Both the position numbers and the translations under genes were made by a program. Shown here piece after piece: positions 37,921-54,956 of a DNA stretch of 64,000 bases (the first letter of the stretch is position 1; every line of letters starts with the position of its first letter). Source of the stretch: Ectocarpus siliculosus (taxonomy: Eukaryota; Sar; Phaeophyceae; Ectocarpales; Ectocarpaceae); contig FN649750.1 of NCBI GenBank assembly GCA_000310025.1, forward strand, positions 3,330,495 to 3,394,494, in the 5' to 3' direction. The notes under the pieces were generated by a model. It did not search any database. It was not told the DNA's origin and was given only the letters and a program-made list of their open reading frames with translations.

Positions 37921-40900
37921 TTGCTTTAACTGAGCCCGAACCTTTTTCGGCAGACCCAGCTGCCGCAGCTCGGATTTGCCAAACTGCGGCGCGACATCTC
38001 AGATCTTTGACAGCTCTTCCCAGGTGTTCTCCTCCTTGTCGAAACCAACCCACTACACTTCTACATCAAACCTAGGGCCATCTTCCGACTCGGACATACA
38101 TGTCTACGATCGCCTCCATCTCGAACTACCCCTGCGTGAAAGCATGCTGAAAATTGTCCTTCAACTCGGCCGTGATCTCGAGAGCGGCATCGGCGAAGAA
38201 CCGCAAGCGCGCGACGTGGACATCCCGAACTTCACCCGACGCAATATTCTGGGCTCCGTTTCACGTGCGGTCACTCGGCAGCGATAATCCTCCACGGCCC
38301 CGTGCAGGTCATGAAAAGCTTCGGCGTCGACCCACGCCGGCGAACGCGCACCACCAATACGTAATCCCCCACCGCAAAGTCCGGCAGGCTCCCAACACAG
38401 GCAGACGTTCGCTGCCGACTCCGACTTGCCTGCATCCTATCCAGACCTTCCTTGTGCAAGTGACGCTCGGCCTCGACGACATGCTGCACCTTCTGCCGCA
38501 TAGCCTTCTCATCCAGGTCGTCCACCTTCCACTCAGCGCCGGTAGACGACGCCAAAGTCGAAAACGCAGTGCGCGGCAATCTACCAAACTTGACGTGGTA
38601 CGGCGTCGAGCCGTAGCGTTCGCGAACGGCGGTGTTCAAGGCCCACTGAACAGCTCGCACCAGAGCAACCCAATCATGAGTACTCCTCCTCTCCTCCTGA
38701 ATCATGGCCTTAAGCGTACGAACCACCTAGGGCATCATTCGCTCGCACGTACAGTTAGACCAGGGAGAGTTGGCGACGGAACATTTTCGATCGACATCGA
38801 GTGCAGTCTCAAGGGCAGCCATCACTGGGAAGCGGTATCACTCACCCACACCTCCGGAACACCCAAAACCTTGTACCACGTGAGGAGATGCTGCGAAGTC
38901 AGGCGGGCAGTGCCTGCTCCCGTGGGCTCTAGCCGAACCCAGTTTGATATGTCGCCCATCAAGACCAAAATATACTTGAATCCGTCCTCCTTGTCCAAGC
39001 CATCTTCCCCCGGCGGGCCACTCACTCCCACGTAGAGGTAGTCAAAATGAACAACTTCGCAAGGACGCGTGCCGTGGACGGTCTCCCCAAGTGGGAGAGG
39101 CACCTTTTCCTCCGCCTTGGAGTCCAAACAATGCAGGCGCTGCTTGACGAAATCGGTGACGTGCTCTTCCATCCGAAACCAGCAACAGTACTCGGACAAC
39201 CGCTGCAAGGTGGCGACGGCGCCACTTTGCCCAGCTTCTTTCATTTGTGTTCAGGCCAATAGTCGCACTTGCAAATCACCCGCTTGGATCTGGAATCCAA
39301 AGCACGTCACGTCCATTCATGTTCACGCGAAGAAACCCCTCACCATCCAAGGCCGTCGTCCCCACCGTCATCGAAAACGACGTCGCTGGCCCGGCAAGCG
39401 CGCCGAGCGCACTCGACGCCTCTTGTGTGCATCACGTACGACTTGCTTCGACGGCATGGCGGCATCAGGTTCGCTGGCGACGTAAACCGCGGCAGCACGC
39501 CGAGCGCACTCGGCGCCTCTTGTGTGCATCACGTACGACTTGCTTCGACGGCATGGCGGCATCACGTTCGCTGGCGGCGTAAACCGCGGCAGCACGAACA
39601 CTCACCGACGGCACAGAGACCCACCTCGATAGAAGGTCCCCCCAGCAATTACGCTCGCCCGAAATGTGCCGGATGGTGTAATCGTACTGACCTTAGACAG
39701 CTTTCCACTGGTCCAGACGCTGAGCCATTGTTTTCGCTACGGCGAACACGCAAGCCTCCGGGTCGAAAATGTACGCGAGATTACGGTGATCGGTGAAGAT
39801 ATGCACGCCATTCCGAAGCAAATACTTCAACCGCTTGAACGTACTCACAATCGCGTACCCTTCCTTGTCCACCGTGGCTCACCGCTGCTGCGCACCCTTA
39901 AAATCGCATCGGCTCATGAGGCATATCCTCCACCGGGACGTTACGGTCCAACTGCTCTTGGGGCACTTGGGTGAGAAAACTTCCCCAATCCTCATCGGAC
40001 GCATCGGGGAACATCAACACGGCGTAATCTGGGCGGGGGTGAGACAAGGCAACAGCACGAGCAACGAGTCTTGCGCGGCATCCCACGCTGCGATCAGCGC
40101 GGGCGTCCACACATCCGCAGCGATCGCGCGATTCTCGGCCACGCGCTTCGTCCGGCTCTTGGCACCGACCAAGTGCTGCTCCAGAAACACGAGGAGCGGC
40201 CACACAACCTCCGCCATCCGCGGTAGACATGTGCGCAGCCAGTTGACCGCCTGCAGGAACGGAATCAGCTTACCAGTGGTCTCAGGATACCGCATTGTAG
40301 CCAGACCACTTCACCGCTCGGAATCATGCTCGACCTTGCCCTGGGAGTACACCTTCCCGCACCATGTGATGCTGGTCTACAAAAACGTGCACTTGTGGGC
40401 GGCCACGTACAGGCCAGCCCCCTCGAGGTGTTCAAGAATCAGGTCGAGGGTGTCAAAGCAAGTCTTCTTTGTCCATGCTCTAATACACAACATCCCTACC
40501 CAGACGAAGCACTTCACCCCCTCTATGATGCGCGACAAAGTGGCCTGGAAATACGACGTAGCGTTTAAAATACCTTGCGGCACGTAGATGAAGACGCACC
40601 TGCACCGTCAGCGGCATCAGGCGCTTTCGATTTCGCCCATATCTGTTGCTGAGACGGTTTCTTACGGGCCTGTACACCGCCACCACGCGATTGCCCAGGC
40701 TGCCTGTCTGCCAATTCAACCGTGCGCCACTCGACCGCAACATCCCGAGCGATCTCAAAGACTAGCTCTGGGTTATCCTTCCAGATTACTTGCATGTCGA
40801 GCTTGCTTTCCACCTTGACCTTGAACTCGGGCGGAGCCAAACCAGCCACAGCTGCTTTGCTGATGACAGCAGCCGGACCTTTCTTGAACTCGCCCGCGGA

Positions 40901-41447
40901 ATCGCGGAAAACACGTTCAGCGCTCGGTATTCGAAGTAGTGCTTGAGGCGGCTTTGAACAGCGTCGATCCGATCTACAGCAGCAGCCTCAGTCCCCATGG
41001 CTACCATACGAGTCAGAGCAGCGGCCGCAATCGAAGGCTCAATGGTATCGTCCGTCGAGCATTCAGCATGTTTGGCGAGAGTCTCGCGCAGGTCAGTTTC
41101 TTCGAGTTCGGTGCCATCAAAGTAGGTGCGCGACAGGCATTTCCGGATAGACTGGCGCAGCAGTTGAGACACAGTGGCAGCGGGCTTTTGATGAACTGCC
41201 CACTGTTGCAGAGACCCATGCTTCGCCCGTACTCGCTGTGCTGCGTATAGAAACGCAAGGACGAAGCTCTCAAAACAAGTCCAAACTCAGGCGGTTTGGG
41301 CCCATTGCCCACGACCAAATCGGTCAGCCCACCCTGAATCTCACCGACCTCTCCAGCAGAACCTTGCTGTCCGCCAAGCGCCCCCTTGCCAGCATTGGAG
41401 CGTCTCTGGGCCATCGCGCCGTACGATGCCCGGGTAGATGAAAACAA
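37920..41447 (-). pseudogene. Ty3/gypsy element relic 2: gag, RT, RNase H, integrase, chromodomain-like end
   Basis: Read on the minus strand. Gag starts AMAQRRSNAGKGALGGQQG near 41413 and continues through LSRTYFDGTELEETDLRE to PELVFEIARDVAVEWRTVEL. Then RT (MPQGILNATSYFQATLSRII, with the catalytic double-Asp box after VWV destroyed by a frameshift near 40498) and LRYPETTGKLIPFLQAVNWL. RNase H follows (MFPDASDEDWGSFLTQVP), with internal stops in its distal half. The integrase has DYLYVGVSGPP, FKYILVLMGDISNWVRLEP and a VRERYGSTPYHVKFGRLP region, then VGDYVLVVRVRRRGSTPKLF. The end ENTWEELSKI with SELRQLGLPKKVRAQLK looks like a chromodomain tail. The family resembles oomycete and brown-algal gypsy elements. 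Numerous frameshifts; dead. Confidence 0.85.
39402..39595. repeat. 97-bp tandem duplication inside pol relic 2
   Basis: GCCGAGCGCACTC starts at 39402 and again at 39499. The two units, including ACGTACGACTTGCTTCGACG, are almost identical, differing at about four positions. The duplication lies between the RNase H and integrase parts and is not a multiple of three. Confidence 0.9.
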
Positions 41448-41449
41448 CA

Positions 41450-42205
41450 GCTACGCGAGAGATCCCTCTGAAAGTGGTGGTATTTTTGGTGGTGTCAACG
41501 CGGTGTGTCAACGTAGTTCACGGACCGCAGCGTTGGTGATGCTGTGGCTCTGTTCCACTGATGTAGTTGAGCATCTTTCCATTTCATCCCTCGTGTTCAC
41601 ACATTCGGGTTTGCGGATGCCGATGTTGCTTCAGATGCAACTTTGGCGGGCGTCGCATGTTTCTCACCGTTCGTTTAGTTATGTTGACAAGACATCGTGC
41701 GACCTATTTTGCGCGTAGGGCGTGGTGCTTCGCGTGGAAGTTCTGCTTTGAGGTTGCGTTTGCGGGTCTGTTTTGGAGGTGGTATATTCTGTGCGGTTTG
41801 TCCCACGTTGGTAGGGTTAATATTCTCCACGATAGTGGCCACAATGTCTTTCTAGTGGTCTTGGAAATGCTCAGACGTTGGTTTGGCGTGTGATGTGCTG
41901 GGTGACGAGGTTTAGGAGGGACGTGGTGTTTCTCCGTTCCTGCACCAATCTGACGAGTCATCATTCATCGAGGGGTACTAGTTTGTCTTCCCACGTAGTC
42001 GGATTCGTGCGATGGCGTGAAGTTATTTGACTGCAGACGTATGCGGACGTTAAAAATTTTATTTCATACATTTTGGTTTTCTTGTTTGGTTTGGAGTTTT
42101 ATCTAAAGGAGTTAGAATACAGAATTAGCATACTGGAAGTTGCGAAATCATGCCTGATTGGTGCACTGCTGTCGACTCTCAAATCTAATAATTTTTCCAT
42201 CTTTG
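41450..42205. other. No gene recognised; probably old LTR/U3 sequence
   Basis: T-rich, with several GGTGTG words. It lies between the gag start of relic 2 (minus) and LTR/leader module C (plus), so it probably contains LTR parts of one or both elements, but I could not align it with the other LTR blocks by eye. Open frames are short. Confidence 0.35.
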
Positions 42206-42485
42206 TGGACGTAGCGCACCTGGGTAGCACGAGTTCATGGTTGGAAGCCGTCTCTGGATATCTGCATGTCTAAGATATGGTAGAGGGATATAAATACATA
42301 TATATATATATATAGAGAGAGAGAGACTCGTGTTAAATAATACACTTCGTTTACCATCACCAAGGACGTCAATCGACCAGCCCCCCGAGGCAACAGGGGG
42401 AGGATTCTGATCCTACGCCGTGCCTGATTTCAGGCGTGTCGACAGTTACCGATAACTCAGGCTGACCGACCAGGGTCAGTCAGGA
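42206..42485 (+). repeat. LTR/leader module, copy C, with a TA/GA microsatellite
   Basis: Same order of motifs as copies A and B: GTGGACGTAGCGCACCTGGG, GGATATCTGCATGTCTAAGA, TTTACCATCACCAAGGA, GGCGTGTCGACAG and ACTCAGGCTGACCGACC. A (TA)n(GA)n microsatellite occupies about 42299-42327 where copies A and B have only GA repeats. Gag follows at 42630. Confidence 0.8.
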
Positions 42486-42629
42486 TATAAAATGTTTGTG
42501 ACGCCAGCAGTACAACTATTCCTCCGTGTTTTTCTCGCTTCGCTGAGGGCGAGGTTTTCGGCTGGGGGAGCTGATGTCCTGGTCTCCCGCGGAGCTGCTA
42601 TCTTGATCTGCACGGGCGTCGTCAACGCG

Positions 42630-43697
42630 ATGACACAGAGACGTTCCGCTACTGGCAAGGGGGCGCTTGGCGGACAGCAAGGTTCTGCTGGAGAGATTGG
42701 AGAAATTGGGGGTGGGCCTGCCGACCTGGTCTTGGGCAATGGGCCCAAACCGCGCGAGTAAGGATGTACCTTTTCGAGAACTTCGTCCTTGCGTTTCTGC
42801 AATACCGCGAGTACGAATGGAGCATGGGTCTTTGAAACAGTGGGCAATGCATCAAACACCCGCTGCTCATTGTGTCTCTACTGCTGCGCCAGTCTATCCG
42901 GAAATGCTTGTTGCGCACCTACTTCGATGGCACCGAACTTGATGAGGATGACCTACGCAAGACTCTGGCCAAACATGCTGAATGCTGGACAGACGATACC
43001 ATTGAGCCCTCGATTGTGGCCGCCACGGTGTGTCGTAAGGTAGCGATGGGGACTAAGCCGAGTGCAGTCGATCGGATAGAAGCTGTTCAAAGCTGCCTTG
43101 AGCAGTACTTCGAAAACCCGAGTGCTAAACGTTTTTTCAAGACTCTACTGCTGCGTTCAAGAAGGTCCCGGCCGCTGTCCTCAGCAAAGCAGTTGTGGCA
43201 AGTCTGTCTTCGCCCGAGTATGAAGTTAAGGTGAAGGGCAAGTTCGACTGCAAGGTAGCTAGAAGGACACCTGAGCTAGTCTTTGAGATCGTTTGGGATG
43301 TTGCGGCCGACTGGCGCACGGTTGAGTTGGTAGACCGGCAGCGTGGGCAATCGCTTGGTGGCCATATTCAGGCTCAGCAACAGACACGGGCGAAAGCGAA
43401 AGCGCGTGACGGAGGTGGCGGTTCAGGTGCGTCTTCGTCTGCCGAGCTTTTTACGTGTTTCTGGTTCAAAAAGCCAGGCTACGCCCCGCAGAACTGTCCG
43501 TTGCAGCGATTCAACGCAAAATCCTCTACCCAGCATGCTGTGCATGGGGTGCATTCGGTTTGGACAAGAAAAAGAACACCTGGGAAGAGCTGTCCAAGAT
43601 CTGGGATGCCGCGCCGCAGAGTGTCAAATCCGAGCTGCGGTGGCTGGGTCTGGCGAAAAATGTTCGGGCTCAGGTGCCTTGTGATTTATCGGTCTAA
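42630..43697 (+). pseudogene. gag through zinc knuckle fused to chromodomain end (deletion derivative)
   Basis: Gag begins MTQRRSATGKGALGGQQG and continues in shifted frames through LLRTYFDGTELDEDDLRK and PELVFEIVWDVAADWRTVEL to a damaged zinc knuckle, CFWFKKPGYAPQNC: the second Cys has become Phe and the His has become Tyr relative to the 27.7-kb copy. At about 43520-43555 the sequence jumps to KNTWEELSKIWDAAPQSVK and SELRWLGLAKNVRAQ, the chromodomain-like tail of pol. All pol enzymes are missing. The breakpoint in gag differs from that of the 31-kb copy. Confidence 0.75.
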
Positions 43698-43699
43698 AT

Positions 43700-44246
43700 C
43701 AATCTCTGCCACTCACGTGACAGTCCCGTGAATGACCTACAAGATAAACGAAAATGTATGATTCCTACACTAAACTCAAGTAAAGCCCCTTGCCAACATC
43801 TACTGCATAAAGAATGTGAATTTTCGGCCATCTGGTGGCGTTTCTGGCCACTTTTAGTGGTGAAGAATCATTTTGAGGTTGGGTTTTCAGGTTGGGGTTC
43901 TCCCATAACCCAACCTGAGAACCCAACCTCAAACTAACACTGCCTTTCCCTGACACCAAATCCTCGCAGCAGCCATCCAACTCATCAGCAAATCACTTGC
44001 AACTGCTACCGCCCACACTCGACCCCTCGACCACCCCACCTACTCCCTGGAAAGCAGTCACCGGGGCACCTGTTACCTAAAAAAATAACAACCTCAAAAA
44101 TCCAACCTCAAAGTTTAAAAGCTGTCTAAATCAATCTTCACGTCACCCATCTAACACAGCATATCCCACCACCTCTTTCCATACCAACACCCACATTGCA
44201 CTCATACACGTTGAATTTAACTCATCCATGTCTCACCAGGTAAAAC
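43700..44246. other. Left flank of the recombinase gene, with a palindrome
   Basis: No gene. Contains the 43874-43930 palindrome (listed separately) and related CAACCTCAAA words at about 44090-44110. The terminal inverted repeat of a mobile element might be expected here, but I could not match this region to anything at 51-53 kb. Confidence 0.35.
43872..43933. repeat. Imperfect palindrome built from GGTTGGG words
   Basis: The left arm TTGAGGTTGGGTTTTCAGGT is followed within 12 bases by the inverse ACCTGAGAACCCAACCTCAA, with one or two mismatches, forming a hairpin-capable unit of about 60 bp. Its arm word (AACCTGAAAACCC in inverse) is the same 13-bp unit that makes the minisatellite at 46225-46321. 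Confidence 0.8.
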
Positions 44247-45918
44247 ATGGGCAGGAAAAGGGGGAGGCAGCGTGGCAAAAACAAGAAGCAGATGATGAGC
44301 AAGAGAGGGGGGAGACAGCTCTGCAAAAACAAGAAGAACGTCCCGGCGACCCCGAAGCTTCGCGACAACAGCCGCGTGTACTTCACGACTGAGGGGGCGC
44401 AGTACATGGCGTGGACGTCGGTGGCGGCGGTCTGTGTGCTCTTTTCGGCGTCATTGCTGTGGCGATGGACGCCGCAGGAACCCCTTGTGAGGAGATTTTC
44501 GTAGGCGTCAGCGGCGAGCTCACGGACGACATGAAGGAGTACGTCCAGTCCCTCCGCGCCAACATCGTCAGCACGTGCGGCGACCACTTCGCCTTCAAGG
44601 ATGGTGAAGAGCTGGCGAGCTTCGACGACATCGTCCACGACCCGATGTGGGTGATTGTGACGAGGGCGATGTGGGAGCTGGTGACACTTCATCCAACTGG
44701 ATATCTCGACGGAAGGGCGGTGTGGCTGTTGGCGAAGTTCCTCGGGTTGCACGGATTTAGGATAGTCAAGCACGAAGACGGCCACTTGGTCCCATGTGAT
44801 GCCGGGGGCCCCATCTCCTCCCAAGAGTGCCCCATGATGCTGCACGACGGCTACGGGCACTTCAAGGCCCTGATTCCACTTCGAAGAATGCCACTGGTAA
44901 GTCTCGTCTGTTTTTAGTTGTATGTGTGCGCGTACATGATATGATCCGTGACATTTTTGCTTTGAATTAAAAAACATATTTGAAGCTCACACAGCTCACG
45001 TTTGGCCAACGCATTGTTTTATTTTGCCCCCCCCCTCCAGGTCCCCCCGCTCGGTGTTTGCCATCGGGATTGGGTTTTCGTCACTTGGCAACGACGTTGT
45101 AAAAGAAGCCAATTCACTTCGTGAACTCGGCAACCAGGTTACCGTTTTTATTTTTTACCTCGTTTTTTTTTTTGGCGGTAACCATATTGGTGGTCGAGTA
45201 GATCATGTTGTGCGGGGTGGAGAACCCTCACTCCGCGCAACGGGGGATGATCGCACCACGTTGTGTTAATATTGGTCAAGCACCATCGAGGCAGTTACAC
45301 AGTGCTTACAACTGTCTCTGGAAGTAAAAGCACCAGAAAATAAATTGAGTCATACGTAGCTGTCATCCGTACGCAAGGAAGTAAGCACAAGATGCCGAAC
45401 ACCCTTAGAAGGATGCAGCTCACCCTTCATGCGACTCGCCAAATACCTCACGGTGCTTCGCGCTTGGTGATGTGAGAGCCTGGTCCGGTGAGAACCCGGC
45501 GTGCTCCGTCCCGGCTTTGTAGGGATGCGAGGTCAATGGTCTAATGACTACGGCATGCACGACTATGAGTACACCCCCCCCCCCCCTCCAGGAGTTCGAG
45601 ATGGAGGAAGAGTACCATTTGCTCCTCGACGAGGGTTTCGTGGACGGCACCGATGAGGAGGAGGCCGTTCCGGGGACGTCGGATTCGGAGACTTCGGACG
45701 GCACCGACGAGGTCCCTGAATCGGCTGTCGCGGTAGATGTAGCCGGCACGGAGGCGTCTGACGGTGGATCGACGCCAAGCCCCGAATCGTCTGATTCCGG
45801 TGGGGGCGACAGTGACCTGGGGGCACGTGGAGCGTTTGGCGAAAATGCTGAGGTGCGCGTTGTTCGTTAATTCTCCTTGTGTAAAATTCTCTATAAAAAA
45901 TAGTCGTCTAGTGGTCCG

Positions 45919-45963
45919 AACCACCGCATCGTTGTTGACATAACCACCGCATCGTTGTTGACA
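45919..45963. repeat. Two 23-bp direct repeats in an intron
   Basis: ACCACCGCATCGTTGTTGAC occurs twice in tandem with a 23-bp period within the intron 45853-46024 of the recombinase gene. Confidence 0.9.
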
Positions 45964-46224
45964 GACAGCAGCCGTAGCACTGAACATACAAATCCATGGT
46001 CTCATTTCGTTGATTGAAAAATAGGGAGAAGAGGTCAAAGCGGCTACCCGTTTGTCCAGCAAGAGGAGCCACCCATGGGACGACGACGAGTATTGGGATG
46101 ACGACGCCAACTACTACTCGGGTTGCACCATAGTTGGCGAAGACGGGTGGACTCTCGTCGGCAAGGAAGGTCGGCGAATGGGGTTGGAGACAAGCTTGGC
46201 CTTCGACGAAGTGAGTCCCTGATA

Positions 46225-46321
46225 CCCCAACCTGAAACCCCAACCTGAAAACCCAACCTGAAAACCCAACCTGAAATACCAACCTGAAAACCCAACCTGA
46301 AAACCCAACCTGAAAACCCAA
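46225..46321. repeat. 13-bp minisatellite filling an intron
   Basis: Seven consecutive copies of CCCAACCTGAAAA (with small variants and one 14-bp unit), plus a partial eighth, make up most of the 129-nt intron 46211-46339 of the recombinase gene. The reverse complement is the arm word of the palindrome at 43.9 kb. Confidence 0.95.
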
Positions 46322-49300
46322 TGCTTTTCGTGAACACAGGCCTCGGGTTTGTACGACCTCACCAGTCCGAACAAATGCCAGCCTTTGTTCCTAGACCACG
46401 ATGACGAAACCGATGAGAACGAAGCAGCGGAGGTGGACGAGGCTGTGGACGAGGTGGGCGAAGATGAAGCCGCAGAGGAGATGGACGAGGACGAGGAGGC
46501 TGAGGCTGAGGCTGGAGAGGAGGTGCAGCAGACTATCGTCGTACACGAAGGAACCACGATTTCCCCCTGGATGCTGGCTTTCTTTCTGCCGCTTCTGCTC
46601 GCCGTTGGGGCCGCTCTTTTCCTGGTGTTTCAGGCAGCCGTGACCTCTACCACCGTACTCCTTAGCATCGGCGAGGCATTCGCGTCAGTCAGCAACAACG
46701 GCAGCAACTCTGCCAACAACAACAGCAGCAGCTCTCGTCGGCGGCGTGCAGCTCGTCGTGGCAAGACTGGTCGCACGAGGATCGGCAGGATTCTGAAATG
46801 CAGATTTGCAGGAGGGAGACGCTTCCGTCCTGCAAGGACTCGTCGCAACGGAAGAGGTTTCTGGGCACGTGGACACAGGAGGAGTGAAGGCGAGATTCTT
46901 GTGATGGACGATGATTCTGCACGCATCTTCGGATTGGTGCTGGCGTTTCTTCGGGGAGGAGCGAAGTCGGGTGACCAACAACAGGTGTGTGCGTGTACCA
47001 GTTGATTTGTGTTCTTCAGAACGTATTTTCATCACGCGACAAAACGGCAAGTCAAACAAGACATTAACTTCTCCAAATGCTTGCTTGGTCGTTCCATCCC
47101 CGTCGTCCCATCCTTTCTCGCAGACACAGGGGAGGCCGAAAAGGGACAGGCGTCCAGCAGGGGGGGTATTCGCCCCCGGTTGGGCACCCGATCCTGCCCC
47201 AACCGCGCGCAACGACAGCGCGAGAGAGTCCGAGGAGGATGGTGAAGATGGTGAAGACTCCGGGGATGCAGATGATGCCGCGTCTCTGGATGGAGTCAGC
47301 GATGGCGAAGAGTCTGAAGAAGATGAAGAGGACTCCGATGAAGACTCCGGTAAAGGGCCTCGTGGTGCTGGTGGGGGAGCGGGTGGTGTGGCGTCAGCGG
47401 GTGATGAAAACTCCGATTTAGAGGACTCCGGGTATGCTCCCAGCGAGGCCGGCGACACCGATGGAGACACCGACGACGATACCACCAGCGACGAGTGTTC
47501 CTCCACCGGCGGGGAAACTCGCTGCGAGGGGTGCGAAGAAGACTTCTATTGTGAACTGGTGGAGTGCCCCACGTGCAATGCGCAGTATTGTCAGGACTGC
47601 GAGAACGACTTGTCTTCTGACAAAGAGGTGAGCTGAACTCGTGTTAGTATTGAGCGAGTAAGGGCCGAAACCAAACTATATGCGCTCAAAAACTTCAAAG
47701 AAAACCCGACCAAGCTTATTTTTTTCTGTTTTGTTGTTATTTGTTTTTTCACCAAACCACAGCGAACGTGTTCTAGGTGTCAGCGAGCGGACGATGATGG
47801 TGTTGGTGATTTTTCGAGTGGGGGGGTCACTGATGGACCGGATAAGTACACCGACACAGATAGTGGTAGCGTCTCTGGAAACTCCAAGCGACGTCGTCGA
47901 TCTGCGGGGAAGAAACATAATCGCATTCCAAGAACTTCTAGCCCGAGAGAGTCGTTGATGGTGCCTAAAGACGACCAGCAGGCGGAACTTATGTTAAGTC
48001 TATACCGCAAAGCCCGCGAGATGGAACGGAAACTCGCAGGAGAAAACAAGAGAATCAAGGAGGTAAGGAACCTCACCCTCCTCGACCTCACGGAAGCAGC
48101 AAGCTGCTTGGACAAGGGTAATCCCGTAAGCGAAGAGATCTGGCGAAAGTGCGAAAAGGAGAACTACGGCCTGTACGGTATCACCGTGCGTCGAGCCGGG
48201 CCAACCGGTGAGACGATTCCGGGGACCGAGGTTACATCAGACAAGGGTAGACGGGGGGAGCTCGTGGAGGCAAAGATGGATGAAGGATACACCGTGTTCA
48301 CCGTCGAGTGGTCGGAAGGCAAGAGCAACAGACGCAGCGCATATTCTACGGAGGACGTGCTTCGTGATCGCGATGATAACCAGGGCGTGGCGACACTTGA
48401 GGAGGCGAAGGAGAAAATGGGGGTGTTTCTACTTGCAACCTTGTGTATGGTCAACGCCCAGGTTTACCGATTCATTACCAAGAACACCAAGTTGGAGAAT
48501 GTGTCAGTGTCAAGTGAGACACGCCCCCTGGCCCGGGATAAAACAGTTGATATTACAAAAGGCCGGAATCACGCTTGGGAGGAGACGAAGAAAGCTCGTG
48601 CGGTGGACACGCTCATGGATAATGAAGTCACGTTCTTGGACTCCTCTGAGGACAAAGGCTTGCGGGTGGAGATGGAAGAAAAAACGTGCTTCGAAATGAT
48701 GGGATTGATCAATGACGCCAGAGCTCACTTCACGGGTCTCGTGAGAAGCACGGAAGACTTCCAAGACAAGCATCTAGCTTTCGTCAACCACTTTGTGAGG
48801 GGGGCGCAGGCGTCCTTTCGGCTGGGTCGACCCACCAACATGGCGTCGTCCATGATCCATCTTTCGGTGAACGAGCTTCCTCCCGGAGTCCAGGCCAAAA
48901 CATTGAAGGAACAAGACACTCAGTTGTATCAACCCGGTGAGCCGACGTCTTTTAGCCTGGGGATGAGGTGTGTCTTGGCGAGGGCACGGGTGAAGGATTC
49001 AGAAGAGTTTGGTGACGGGGGATCTTCGACCTGCCAGTTTCTGATGAGGTATCCGTTGTACAGGCTTTTGGATCTTTCCCGGGTTGATAATCTTCCTCTG
49101 TGTCCGACAACGGAGCATTCGAGTCATGTTTCACCAACACTTCGCCACAGAGATGCGTACAGTCAAGCGTTTTCTTCGCACAGTAAGCGGAAAGCGGATT
49201 TGGACGTGTTTGACATAATCAAGGGGGGGTATCATTCTGTGTCGCAAGAGAAGCGGTCCGAAAAAGGTGTGATAGAGAATGAAAACGAGAGGATCGCATT

Positions 49301-51094
49301 TGGTGCGAAGTTCAATAAAGGCAGGACTCACTTGGTGGGAAGCGATGAATGTCTGCAAGGGTTTCTTTTACTTGAAGAACTCGTGTCTCGCAATGGGATA
49401 GACTCGTTCATGGAGAAGTTACCCGACAAGGATGATATTGTCAAGATGTGCAATGAAGTGCTTGAGATGAACCCACGCAAGCGCGAGAACGAGGATCATC
49501 TTTGTCCACCGGAGTTCAAACAGAGGATTGAAGCGATCGTCGATGAACTGGTAGAAGGAAACAAGGTAACCAGATCGGATATTTCGTTGCTCAGTTGCTC
49601 TTTAACGGTGTTGGATTCTCTGCTTACCGCTGCCCTTCGAAAGCAAGACATTTTGGGACAGCTTGCTAAAGATTTGTACCGAATGAAGTGTAAGGACGTA
49701 TATGGCAACGACGTTGCTATTACCCGGTGTCTTCTTCCCCGTTACTTCAAAAACAAGAAAGCACTCGAGAATTCTACGTGTGGAGTAGTTGTGAACCATA
49801 CAAAACATGAGAAGTGTGAGGGGGCGTATGCGGTTATGGCAGTCATTGGGAGGAAGGTGATGCGAAGCTTCTTGAGAAGGAGGCGGAAAAGAACTTGGCA
49901 GAGCTCAGAAAGAAAGGGGGGTGTACCGAGAAAGCCTTAGAGAGGGTGGCCGAGTCGTATACTCTTACACCCCATTTGGGTCCCTTTGACGACAAAGGTT
50001 GTGTCTTCACACCCAGTCAAGTGACGGGTATGTACAAATGGTTGGGGCAGCGCACAATGGGCCTTTCGCATTTTGGCACTCACATCATCCGCAGTAATCA
50101 CGCGACGGCGGTGGCGATGTACTGTGTGAGGACAGGGCTGTCGCACGATGACCAGGCGGTCAAGGATTTGTTTGCTTTGGCGAGACACGGTGATAAGCAG
50201 AGGATTCGGTTTTACACGAAAGTCAAAGGTGATACGCCAAATTCGTGTGATTTCCTGACTAATTTAAGTGGTGCCCTTCCCTCACTTCGTCGCCTCGGGG
50301 AGGGGGGGGGAGTCAAGACTTCTGAGAAAAAGGTGGCGTCACTGAGTGATGTTGAAGAAGTAGGTCTTTCGGGTCTCTTTGCCTTCGAGGATGCCGAGTT
50401 CGACAAATCCGGGGCGTTTGCACGTGGGAAAACGGTGATGGGTGACGGGGCATATAGAGAGTTGGATGTGGTCGAGATGGATGATGAAGAGAAGGACTTG
50501 GTTAGGCAGGAGCGAAAGGTTACCAGGAAAGCTAATATTGCGATTGAAGAAAAACGGGAGAAAGAGGCCAAGACGGCCCAGTTTGAAAATAAGGTGGACA
50601 CCGGTGTGAAGTCGGGTGGTCGGAAGAAGGGGGGAGTTCGCGCTGACAGGCTTGAGTATCGCAAGAGTGCGTTTGCCAAAATAAATCAGTTGGTTTTGAA
50701 AGCAAGTAAGCTGAAAAGGTTGGGAAAGGGCAAGAAGCCCAAGCGGATGACGTTGGAGTAGTTTGAAGAATGATCAGAAGACTGTTAGAGTTGCGTTCCA
50801 CGACAACGTCAAGCGGTTTTTACACTCGGCGAATCCTGGGGAGAAGGACTTTTTGGATGGATTTTATTTGAATTTGATCGACGGGAAAAGTAGGCCCGGG
50901 AGTAAAGCAGTTGCTTACGCGAGGGAACATCGGATTGAGTGGAGTTACCACGATTGGTCTACTGGGAATGTTTGTGTTAGCGTACCACAGGAGAAAAAGG
51001 GTGGTACGAAGAGGAAGTTGGTTGAGGAGGGGGAGGGTTAGTAGTAGCGAGGACCGTTCTTTTACGTACGTTCAGGTTTGAAATTTTACGAGTG

Positions 51095-52180
51095 TGTTCC
51101 TTGGCCATATGTGACACAGCACAAAAAAGTAGAGTGCCAAACGTTTTCAATTTCAGCTATAATTCAAGTTTGAAGCCAGTTCTGGGTGATACAGCAGTAC
51201 TGCACGCACACGAATCCTTGTCTCAATGGCGTTCTCGGCCCGCACACAAAGTTCAGGTTTGAAAACTTGGGAACATGTACGCCTGGAACGTGTGCACCCA
51301 TTCCTGTAAAACAACCAACCTTGTCGGTATCCATGGCGCTGAAAATGGCCGGTTTCAAGTCAAGCTTTTTGAGGCCACGGGGCCCCCTTTTGCCATTGCT
51401 TTGCTCGACAAGTCATCAAGGAAGTGCAGGATGACTCCCCAACTTTGTACGAAGGTGTGTCTTGGCCATGGTGACACAGCACAAAAAAGTAGAGTGCCAA
51501 ACGTTTTCAATTTCAGCTTTAATTCAAGTTTCAAACCAGTTCTGGGTGATACAGCAGTACTGCACGTACACGAATCCTTTTCTAAATGGCGTTCTCGGCC
51601 CGCACGCAAAGTTCAGGCTTGAAAACTTGGGAACATGTACGCCTGGCATGTGTGCACCTATTCCTGTAAAACAACCAACCTTGTCGGTATCCATGGCGCT
51701 GAAAATGGCCGGTTTCAACCTTTTTGAGGCCACGGAGCCCCCTTTTGCCATTGCTTTGCTCGACAAGTCATCAAGGAAGTGCAGGATGACTCCCCAACTT
51801 TGTACGAAGGTGTGCCTTGGCCATGGTGATACAGCACAAAAACGAAGAGTGCCAAACGTTTTCAATTTCAGCTTTAATTCAAGTTTGAAACCAGTTCCGG
51901 GTGATACAGCAGTACTGCATGCGCACGAATCCTTGTCTCAATGGCGTTCTCGGCCCGCACGCAAAGTTCAGGCTTGAAAACTTGGGAACATGTACGCCTG
52001 GCATGCGTGCGCCTATTCCTGCAAAACAACCAACCTTGTCGGTATCCATGGCGCTGAAAATGGCCGGTTTCAAGCTTTATGAGGCCACGGAGCCCCCTTT
52101 TGCCATTCCTTTGCTCGTTTAGTGCCGATGGAAATGCCGGATGACTCAAAAACTTTGTAGGAATGTGTGCCTTGGCCATG
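51095..52180. repeat. 355-bp tandem repeat, three units plus partial
   Basis: CTTGGCCAT occurs at 51100, 51461, 51816 and 52171, giving periods of 361, 355 and 355. Units share GATACAGCAGTACTGCA, GGCGTTCTCGGCCCGCAC, TGTCGGTATCCATGGCGCTG and CTTTGCTCGACAAGTCATC. The fourth unit breaks off after about 40 bp. Both strands stay open over long stretches, but no start, motif or composition marks a real protein. The array begins about 55 bp after the last stop of the recombinase locus. Confidence 0.9.
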
Positions 52181-52640
52181 GTGACACATCCCGAAAAAGC
52201 AAAACGTCAAAAATCTTTAATTTAAGCTTAGGGTTATTGTTAACGCAAAGTCGAAATCGTTCTTTTTTAAACGGAACGGTTGAAAGAAAACCCGACTTTT
52301 TTTTGCTTGTTCTTTTCGTGATGTCATCAAAAAAAGCACGTTTCCTTCCCTGAATACACGCTTTGCTCGGCACACAACAGGTTGACATGGTATTGCTCAC
52401 CATAGAGCAGCGATAAAAGCGCAATAAGCAGCACCCGGCACAGAGGACAACACACTTAGAAAGATCCCGTACACCCGGCCTGCTGTTTTCAGTTTTTAGC
52501 AACAACAGGCGCACGGCAGAGTGTCGCAACCTGGGTGTTGCTTGCGATTTCTTCAGTTTGCCAGCTCATTTTTCACGGTTGCGACTCCCATCTTTGACCA
52601 CCACCTACCCAAAGGTAGACGAGCTCAACAATCATAGGGC
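52181..52640. other. No gene recognised
   Basis: Flank of the 355-bp array. The open minus-strand frame (52146-52529) has no recognisable features. The 52240-52350 part is A/T-rich. Confidence 0.35.
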
Positions 52641-52654
52641 GGCAGCCGCGCTGA

Positions 52655-52970
52655 CGGCCAGCATCATATAGATGGCCAATCCGAAAGAATGAGCGTGTTG
52701 GAGGCCCTGTTGCTCTACTGCTGCGTGACGCCGTGGATTGATGTTCATGTGTCCGACCAAAAACAGATCATCTCGCCGCAATTTTTCCAACGGCATTTTG
52801 GTGAGGTGGCACACGTCTCTCACACACCTTATTGAGCAGCACCCAAGCACTCAATACCCACGAAGCAGCACGGCGCCGGGAGATGGTATCATATAGACAG
52901 CCGAACCGAAGGAATCAGCGCTTTGGAGGTCTTGCTGCTGCTGCTGTACTCGTTCTACTGTTTCCGTGTT
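52655..52970. repeat. Diverged tandem duplication
   Basis: 52662-52740 and 52886-52960 align by eye: CATCATATAGATGGCCAATC against TATCATATAGACAGCCGAAC, then CCGAAAGAATGAGCG against CCGAAGGAATCAGCG, then TTGGAGG-C and a GCTGCTG-rich tail. The unit is about 220 bp. In the first copy the frame that is open in the second ends after six codons. Confidence 0.6.
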
Positions 52971-53209
52971 TGCTATGTGTGATCGAAAAAAATTCCCCAG
53001 CACCAACAGCAGCAGTTGAAGACGAGAGCACCACGCAATGTCTAGTTTTGGACCAAGAACGGACTGAACGCCGCTTCTGCCGCTTGTCCATCTCCACAAC
53101 AGACCTGGACGTGAGTCTGGCAGGTCTTTCTAGCGTTCTCAGTGATGTTACAGCGCCTGCGGTGCGCTTGTCCGATGCTTCTGTCAAAAACACGAATTCG
53201 TTTAAGTAG
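52883..53209 (+). CDS. Small single-pass membrane or secreted protein, unknown
   Basis: 108 codons from ATG 52883. A basic start (MVSYRQPNRRNQRFGG) precedes a strong hydrophobic segment (LAAAAVLVLLFPCLLCVI, about residues 17-34), then a Ser/Thr-rich polar domain with two Cys. This fits a signal anchor or uncleaved signal peptide with the bulk outside the cytoplasm. The codon frame begins inside the second copy of a local duplication. No family is recognised. It may be the first exon of a longer gene, since the frame ends without any splice-like context, or it may be chance. Confidence 0.3.
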   Translation: MVSYRQPNRRNQRFGGLAAAAVLVLLFPCLLCVIEKNSPAPTAAVEDESTTQCLVLDQERTERRFCRLSISTTDLDVSLAGLSSVLSDVTAPAVRLSDASVKNTNSFK

Positions 53210-53334
53210 CAAGCCCCAAAAAAACCGGGCTCCTTCTTTTCACGCTTTCGTTCAAAAACGCCTCCATATGTGTTCAAGAAAACACGGTTTCGTTTTTGTT
53301 TTCGTGTTTTATTGGTCGATAAGAAGCACCCTTA

Positions 53335-53440
53335 AAAGTTACTTTGGAACCAGCGCCGGGCGCTACAGCAGTACTCGAGGTGCCCGAAGCCTTTTGGCAT
53401 TGGCAGTCTCGGCCGCCACGCAAAGTTGAAGCCTGGAAAA
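53335..53440. repeat. Diverged isolated copy of part of the 355-bp unit
   Basis: ACCAGCGCCGGGCGCTACAG, CAGTACT, CATTGGCAGTCTCGGCC, CACGCAAAGTTGAAGCCTGG and AAAACTT occur in the same order and spacing as ACCAGTTCCGGGTGATACAG and onward in the 51.9-kb unit. Roughly 100 bp align, at perhaps 70-75 percent identity by eye. Confidence 0.7.
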
Positions 53441-53454
53441 CTTCCGCGGTCAAT

Positions 53455-54295: not shown

Positions 54296-54299
54296 AGCA

Positions 54300-54956
54300 A
54301 AAACAACAAAACAAGCACGCCATGCCAGCCAGCCCCAGTCCTCCGCCCAGGGTGGTTCCGGAAACTACATAGAGTGCAAAAACAACTAAACAAGTACGCC
54401 ATGCCAGCCCCAGTCCTCCGCCAAGGGTGTTTCTGGAACTTACACGGAGTGCAAACACAACAAAACAAGCACGCCATGCCAGCCCAGTCCTCCGCACAGG
54501 GTGGTTCCGGAAACTACATAGAGTACAAAAACAACTAAACAAGTACGCCATGCCAGCCCCAGTCCTCCGCCAAGGGTGTTTCTGGAACTTACACGGAGTG
54601 CAAACACAACAAAACAAGCACGCCATGCCAGCCCAGTCCTCCGCACAGGGTGGTTCTGGAAACTACATAGAGTGCAAAAACAACTAAACAAGTACGCCAT
54701 GCCAGCCCCAGTCCTCCGCCAAGGGTGTTTCTGGAACTTACACGGAGTGCAAACACAACAAAACAAGCACGCCATGCCAGCCCAGTCCTCCGCACAGGGT
54801 GGTTCTGGAAACTACATAGAGTGCAAAAACAACTAAACAAGTACGCCATGCTAGCCCCAGTCCTCCGCCAAGGGTGTTTCTGGAACTTACACAGAGTGCA
54901 AACACAACAAAACAAGCACGGCATGCCAGCCTCAGTCCCCTCCGCCAAGGGTGGTA
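54300..54956. repeat. 149-bp tandem array made of two related half-units
   Basis: TTCTGGAACTTACACGGAGT recurs with a 149-bp period (near 54431, 54580, 54729 and, as ACAGAG, 54878). Each unit contains two similar halves of about 75 bp, both carrying ACGCCATGCCAGCC, CAGTCCTCCGC and a CACAACAAAACAAGCA or AACAACTAAACAAGTA spacer. The unit is not a multiple of three, so no single frame repeats, although stop-free stretches begin at the same place in each unit. Confidence 0.95.

Follow-up and report, generated by a model that had tools for sequence, protein, structure and literature searches.

The window analysed here, a stretch of 64,000 nucleotides from the brown alga Ectocarpus siliculosus (contig C25:3330495-3394494), carries on its forward strand a predicted gene in which an OTU-like protease, acidic and hydrophobic stretches, a zinc cluster and a tyrosine recombinase (YR) follow one another, and which is probably the main gene of a decayed mobile element. 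Positions are given in window coordinates, related copies are named by contig, and the genome searched comprised 189 Mb in 492 contigs. The EsV-1-7 repeat of Pfam, a family expanded in brown algae, has at least 150 matches in this genome (the number scored, out of 880 candidates) and none in 14 control genomes, in keeping with a brown-algal host. The sequence-only reading of this DNA had noted OTU-like Cys and His motifs at the start of the locus and recombinase motifs at its end, and all of them are present where it had placed them: GGGGLCALFGVIA and HDGYGHFKAL in the open reading frame (ORF) 44393-44914, and THIIRSNHATAV and LARHGDKQRIRFYTKV in the ORF 49820-50761.

Architecture and domains of the predicted protein

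Exon 1 (44247-44896), with a frame break near its start, encodes the OTU-like cysteine protease (C in GGGLC, H in GHF) and is followed by exon 2 (45592-45852), an acidic linker, by exon 3 (46025-46210), by exon 4 (46340-46984), which comprises an acidic stretch, a strongly hydrophobic segment that may be a membrane or packing segment and a basic stretch, and by exon 5 (47124-47627), with a further acidic stretch and the Cys cluster CEGC..C..CPTC..YCQDC. Exon 6 (47763-50761), broken in frame between 49820 and 49940, opens with CSRC and runs on into the recombinase (R in LRKQD, K in NHTK, HIIR, ARHG, FYTKV). The protein ends in a C-terminal tail of 96 codons (50751-51041) that neither the window nor copy C84 has in frame; a similar tail is read, by eye, at the end of the single 1087-amino-acid frame of copy C24. 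With exon 1 counted from 44393, the first five exons each have a length divisible by three, the sixth is in frame from 47763, and all donors are GT and all acceptors AG, so that the junctions are phase 0. The three closest copies support this exon structure: their exons are 93-99% identical to those of the window (93-98% for exon 2), and introns 2-5 are 85-94% identical in C84 and C23 and 85-99% in C16. Pattern matching at the eight junction sites that follow the start of exon 2 recovered all eight in C84 and seven each in C23 and C16, and C23 and C16 have the same exon-1 donor as the window. We infer that the main gene yields a single spliced OTU-to-YR protein.

The hydrophobic segment of exon 4 has a mean hydropathy of 2.5 over 21 residues; C11 is comparable (2.3, 2.1), the C16b ORFs tried are weaker (at most 1.4), and no segment of this type was seen in C24 (0.5). 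Between the OTU and YR parts of C16b lies a PHD-like stretch (PF00628, E 4.4e-4, 20.7 bits with a cut-off of 24), and the PHD profile has no Pfam match in the window's exon 5 ORF. No reverse transcriptase, RNase H or DDE integrase-core family was found in the scanned ORFs of the window element or its relatives, in agreement with the earlier statement that none lies nearby on the same strand, and a DIRS-like retroelement is rejected on this ground. GCR1_C likewise had no Pfam match in the scanned ORFs, and the stray matches that did occur, to LRRNT (a C11 ORF, E 0.001), HNH_2 and US29, are barely above noise.

The OTU fold of exon 1 is firmly predicted. An alignment of eleven sequences, five of them near-identical copies, keeps the catalytic Cys in ten rows and the His in all eleven. 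Searched with Foldseek, the AlphaFold 2 (AF2) model (pLDDT 74, pTM 0.70) gave OTU proteases in all of its first 50 rows, among them DUBA, which we take to be an OTU protease; the best E value was 0.0016, with none below 0.001. Structure comparison with VIA gave a Z score of 10.5, with a root-mean-square deviation (rmsd) of 3.7 over 138 residues, and every one of the 50 rows listed belongs to the OTU family or to the deubiquitinases; three titles say just ubiquitin protease or deubiquitinase, and one of the rows is Gumby, presumably OTULIN. This strong structural match bears out the fold that the sequence-only reading had proposed. At the level of sequence, the OTU profile found among solved structures a weak best match, the 'pseudo deubiquitinase' 6k6l (E 0.011), and Pfam gave no OTU match on the alignment and one row for Peptidase_C48 (E 0.015).

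The main recombinase, hereafter YR1, was aligned from seventeen fragments at 10 loci, and its motifs were read by script at 14 loci, of which the window and C84 are near-identical. The box-I R is present in 13/13 loci that cover box I, and the second R of [HN]xxR in 14/14; the first residue of the latter motif is H in four (window, C84, C24, C18), N in eight, G in C4 and M in C36. H-x-K is found in 10/14 loci (two of these from a separate reading) and is uncertain in C18, and the closing Y is in place in 8/14, with a Y at different spacing in C4 and none seen there in C15b and C18. The window family and C24 therefore hold the full YR set in order (R, K, HxxR, H/W, Y), the divergent members keep both R and mostly HxK and Y, and these residues are conserved down to about 30% identity. 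In a Foldseek search of PDB the top two rows for the YR1 model were the Staphylococcus aureus integrase 3nkh (E 0.02 and 0.03), with XerH and XerA within the first eleven rows, among unrelated receptors; the top VIA row was XerH (Z 4.7, rmsd 6.3, 141 residues).

A link to known integrases is provided by another recombinase, YR2, a 799-amino-acid ORF that faces the recombinase gene of C24 and has relatives at five further loci. PF00589 matches four of the six YR2 proteins, all below the cut-off (C36, E 1.2e-4; C26, C213 and C16, E 0.003-0.03, those of C213 and C16 being near-identical), and does not match those of C11 and C24. The phrog_1 integrase profile reached E 2.5e-4 at best (C24, E 0.05), XerA/XerC matches appeared in all three YR2 proteins scanned (best E 2e-4), and YR2 proteins keep RSQ..R, K and HxCR, with Y in the five rows that reach that far. 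Searched against the ORFs of six loci, a small set, the YR1 profile in turn finds YR2 (E 9e-7 to 4.5e-4), and hhalign places box I and HxxR of the two profiles in register (81.8%, E 1.1e-5). YR2, matching both the YR1 profile and known integrases, thus forms a bridge from the one to the other. Comparison of YR1 and YR2 with the sequences of solved structures gave nothing useful, and phage records held no relative of the one YR2 protein searched. That YR1 is a tyrosine recombinase, as had been proposed, is therefore supported by its conserved residues and by profile homology through YR2, the fold match in PDB being weak.

Copies and ends of the element

Queried with the recombinase exon, the genome returned 29 match rows. 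Protein identity is 91-92% in the main rows of C84, C23 and C16, 54% in C24 and about 30% in C11, C15, C25b and others. The OTU exon returned 15 rows which, together with C15a (found by tblastn and profile), make 16 OTU loci. At eight of the 16 an OTU sequence is accompanied by a same-strand YR downstream (window, C84, C23, C16, C24, C11, C15a, C16b), out of ten loci examined; the remaining two are C27, which runs into an assembly gap, and C13, which is negative in the stretch looked at. The association of the two parts is more than chance, as sequences related to the start and to the end of the gene occur together elsewhere in the genome. Comparison of the window with C84, C23 and C16 gave a synonymous divergence (dS) of 0.018-0.055 and a ratio of non-synonymous to synonymous divergence (dN/dS) of 0.16-0.87, depending on the exon; the low dS indicates that these close copies are rather recent. 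Between C84 and C24, dN is 0.44 and dS 1.79, so that the protein was under constraint between subfamilies. Several family copies are decayed.

The left terminal region (43691-43870, forward strand) starts with GGT (43691-43693), followed by two variable bases and by AAATC from 43696, and is conserved over about 130 bp among divergent family members. Its boundary is shared by the window, C84, C23, C16 and C27, pairs of which showed no colinear match outside it where compared, and it recurs in the diverged loci C112, C15b, C19, C23b and C24. In an alignment of ten ends that reach the boundary and of C16b, which does not (C11 and C15a being left out), identity climbs at the boundary from about 0.45 to 0.7-0.9. 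GGT is present in eight of the ten (not in C19 and C23b) and is followed by two bases (three in C27) and AA[AG]. The region was found at 16 loci, some by short matches of 50-84 bp and C11 by a weak one (E 1e-4), and it was through this sequence that a divergent branch B was reached. A YR1 match lies within about 10 kb downstream at 12/16 left-end loci (window, C84, C23, C16, C24, C16b, C15b, C19, C23b, C15c, C11, C15a), of which C23b (at 9 kb) and C15c rest on short protein matches; C27 is gapped, C24:1286566 and C109 were left out of this look-up, and C112 has no YR1 within 8 kb. The search for other copies in the genome, which the sequence-only reading had suggested, thus turned up several whose left end is defined and whose flanks are unrelated.

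A tentative right end is marked by the GGT at 51256-51258, where the match between the window and C84 ceases after running to ...AAAGTTCAGGT. With GGT at both ends, a three-base core is suggested, the candidate terminal repeat being only these 3 bp (eight of ten left ends, one candidate right end). The span originally given, 44247-51041, therefore has to be widened, to the left as far as 43691 and to the right perhaps as far as 51258. An alternative right end, '...CAAACCG', seen in C84 and C23, was dropped: the right flank of C84 resumes in C23 past a 5.9-kb insertion, so that the two are not independent. This insertion (G000:C23:3479297-3485223) sits beside the right flank of the element. The left flank of C23 was considered as a paralogous empty site and not counted, as its other half was not found on the right side; it is part of a high-copy inverted-repeat element (266 bp, 85% identity), and the six other copies examined continue past the GGT. 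The match between C15b and C19 ends where the C19 piece ends, with no resumption, and the right ends are not reached there.

The nature of the family and its alternatives

Taken together, these data make it likely that the window holds a decayed copy of a brown-algal tyrosine-recombinase DNA transposon family whose main gene encodes one spliced OTU-linker-zinc-YR protein, and the family itself is real and unusual, and probably mobile. The proposal that a recombinase-bearing mobile element with a protease module lies here is accordingly supported by the OTU fold, the YR residues, the further copies and the left end. Enzymes of the YR family exchange strands through a phosphotyrosine intermediate, excise circles and integrate at short homology (PMC3212892). 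By analogy, the recombinase would bind the conserved left terminal region of about 130 bp and the right end, recombine at a very short GGT core, releasing a circle with no reverse transcription, and reinsert the circle at another GGT. The zinc cluster and acidic region might tether the complex to chromatin, and the OTU domain might strip ubiquitin from the recombinase itself or from chromatin or repair proteins around the break.

How does such an element compare with known ones? In design the family is close to the Ulp1-bearing Cryptons, and it is best described as a Crypton-like variant of YR DNA transposons rather than as a Crypton. The view that it matches no described class has to be softened, since Cryptons, some of which also encode a Ulp1-type (C48) ubiquitin-like protease, form a close precedent (PMC3212892). 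Those of oomycetes and diatoms (CryptonF-2_PS, CryptonS) are likewise YR DNA elements without reverse transcriptase in stramenopile hosts, and Cryptons have short direct repeats (4-6 bp) at their termini, for which GGT is this family's candidate counterpart, and, like this family, no inverted repeats and ends that are hard to see (PMC3212892). They differ in that the protease here is OTU, seemingly N-terminal in the same spliced protein, with a zinc cluster in addition, in that the candidate terminal core is GGT as against Crypton repeats of 5-6 bp with TATGG (PMC3212892), and in that a second, convergent YR lies near some copies; GCR1_C, unmatched here, is a CryptonF domain and is also lacking in CryptonS (PMC3212892). 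Ginger1 DNA transposons likewise couple a transposase with OTU or Ulp1 (one family has PHD as well), and for them, too, ubiquitin has been suggested to play a part in transposition, with OTU/Ulp1 possibly acting on ubiquitin or SUMO during repair; but they use a DDE integrase, have terminal inverted repeats and carry OTU at the C-terminus (PMC2836005). Helentrons are mobile elements with an OTU-like protease, but of the Rep/helicase type (PMC6431247). A DIRS1-like element of Ectocarpus with an ALOG domain is also a brown-algal YR element with a zinc-containing DNA-binding part, but encodes Gag, a methylase and reverse transcriptase/RNase H, and its terminal repeats measure 159 bp (PMC3537659). 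The phaeovirus integrase and the endogenous phaeoviruses of Ectocarpus offer another brown-algal YR, with an XerH-like fold and a minimal two-base core that the weak XerH match and the candidate GGT core of the family recall, and a Feldmannia virus protein is the best structural match of YR1; the phaeovirus core, however, is CC or GC, the insertions contain viral genes and can reach hundreds of kb, and OTU is not mentioned in the main text of that paper (PMC13236599).

Several observations weigh against the transposon reading. The first H of HxxR is replaced by N in most divergent YR1 members, the hairpin K is absent in branch B (C15b, C16b, C36), and the closing Y is missing from its expected position in C9, C36 and C16b. 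The AF2 model of YR1 is modest (pLDDT 61, pTM 0.54), no PDB row in its Foldseek search falls under 0.001, its VIA Z is below 5 and tied with unrelated helical proteins, and Pfam Phage_integrase matches neither any of the scanned YR1 proteins nor their alignment. The exon-1 donor is two bases shorter in C84 and C27, so that phase 0 fails there; the earlier suggestion that exon phases permit one product thus holds for the six exons of the window and not for this junction of the two copies. At C13 an OTU sequence stands without a YR in the piece following it or in 1880001-1884000, about 1 kb between them being left out. As to the ends, the sharp left end with unrelated flanks is accompanied neither by a clean empty site nor by a firm right end, which rests on a single comparison because C84 and C23 share their right flank and C422 shares that of the window.

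Could these weaknesses mean that two unrelated neighbouring genes have been joined on paper, the recombinase likeness arising by chance? The missing Phage_integrase matches, the weak fold match and the exon-1 donors just described would fit, but the coupling at eight loci down to about 30% identity, the phase-0 exons of the window and the conserved residues make this highly improbable. A host gene family that combines OTU with recombinase-like domains, and that was domesticated and multiplied by segmental duplication, would account for the constraint between C84 and C24, for the introns and for the right flank common to C84 and C23; against it stand the recurrence of one left boundary next to unrelated flanks (C25, C84, C16 and C27), the terminal DNA conserved among loci whose proteins are only about 30% alike, and the decay of several copies, and we regard it as very unlikely. 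The element might also be part of a larger, two-recombinase one, consisting of left end, OTU-YR1, optional cargo, convergent YR2 and right end, of which the window, C84 and C16 would be shortened derivatives. YR2 is indeed convergent to YR1 at three of its six loci (C24, adjacent; C36, at about 3 kb; C11, at about 18 kb), and at C36 extra ORFs lie between the two. However, no YR1 is seen among genome matches near the other three YR2 loci, YR2 was not found in the window or in the flanks taken of C84, C23 and C16, and the upstream regions of YR2 share just short or weak stretches, with no common outer end found, so that this arrangement seems rather doubtful. One ORF between the convergent genes of C36 (L059:4239-4808) looks nuclease-like by eye and has no Pfam match.

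A viral source would have wider implications. In a Foldseek search of BFVD the YR1 model matched the Feldmannia species virus protein B5LWN9 (E 4.3e-9, probability 1.00), with 21% identity over 361 columns, a TM score of 0.43 and an rmsd of 15; this top row is isolated, the next being Q6XM32 of Feldmannia irregularis virus (E 0.028), and B5LWN9 may be either an integrase or a telomere resolvase. Phaeoviruses use a YR to integrate at CC or GC dinucleotides and have, in addition, a telomere resolvase gene (PMC13236599), so that the family might be a phaeovirus fragment or offshoot in which either enzyme was retained as a mobile gene. Yet window-type copies consist of one OTU-YR gene in about 7.5 kb, and scans of IMG/VR viral contigs by short peptide patterns found no relatives; an origin of this kind is unlikely. 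A bolder form of the transposon reading may be entertained, tentatively and short of calling it probable: the family could represent a separate superfamily of eukaryotic YR DNA transposons, defined by an OTU-zinc-recombinase protein, a conserved GGT-cored terminal region of about 130 bp and, where copies are fuller, another recombinase gene in convergent orientation, its main recombinase being shared with brown-algal giant viruses through machinery exchanged between the two or descended one from the other.

Few eukaryotic classes are less well known than recombinase-based DNA transposons, and brown algae have been charted only poorly. In the open-access literature, as represented by titles, the starts of abstracts and selected passages, OTU and a tyrosine recombinase were not found in one element, and 'tyrosine recombinase' with 'OTU domain' brought up only the Ginger paper. 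A 2025 survey of Ectocarpus transposable elements lists 94 unknown families, and the words Crypton and OTU are absent from its main text (PMC12477816). If true, an OTU-recombinase fusion would, beside Ulp1 in Cryptons and OTU/Ulp1 in Ginger, be an independent case for the idea that transposons alter the ubiquitin or SUMO marks at the breaks they make (PMC2836005), and, were transposon and phaeovirus to share a recombinase, the way in which giant-virus integration arose could be tested directly.

Decay and surroundings of the window copy

Besides being interrupted, the window copy shows decay: compared with other copies, the reading frame is broken in exon 1 and again in the recombinase exon. 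In C84 the recombinase frame is open over 1032 amino acids, and past the catalytic part frame changes set it apart from the window. Intron 1 holds an insertion of about 540 bp (45043-45577) that is missing at the same place in C84, C23, C16 and C27. It adjoins the 3' splice site and is flanked by a repeated C-rich CTCCAG stretch; since C23 and C27 carry the same sequence elsewhere, it seems to be a separate mobile repeat.

To the right, 355-bp tandem units made of the element's last 175 bp or so and adjacent DNA (51084-52229) are present in the window and in C422, and a diverged unit of this type lies at 53343-53443, as if an older related end were there. Between them is another insertion (52230-53331), a stretch lacking in the related C422 copy, whose first 470 bp are a high-copy repeat. 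This repeat (52228-52700) has at least 39 further matches of 92-99% identity (40 of 192 candidates were scored), a similarity that points to recent activity. Farther on, a minisatellite (54297-54955) alternates 74- and 75-bp units, every second unit being about 95% alike. Directly left of the element stands a large inverted repeat (40668-43373) with arms of 104, 139 and 251 bp that are 84-87% complementary, and the ORF 43129-43731 has, by eye, a zinc-knuckle-like appearance.

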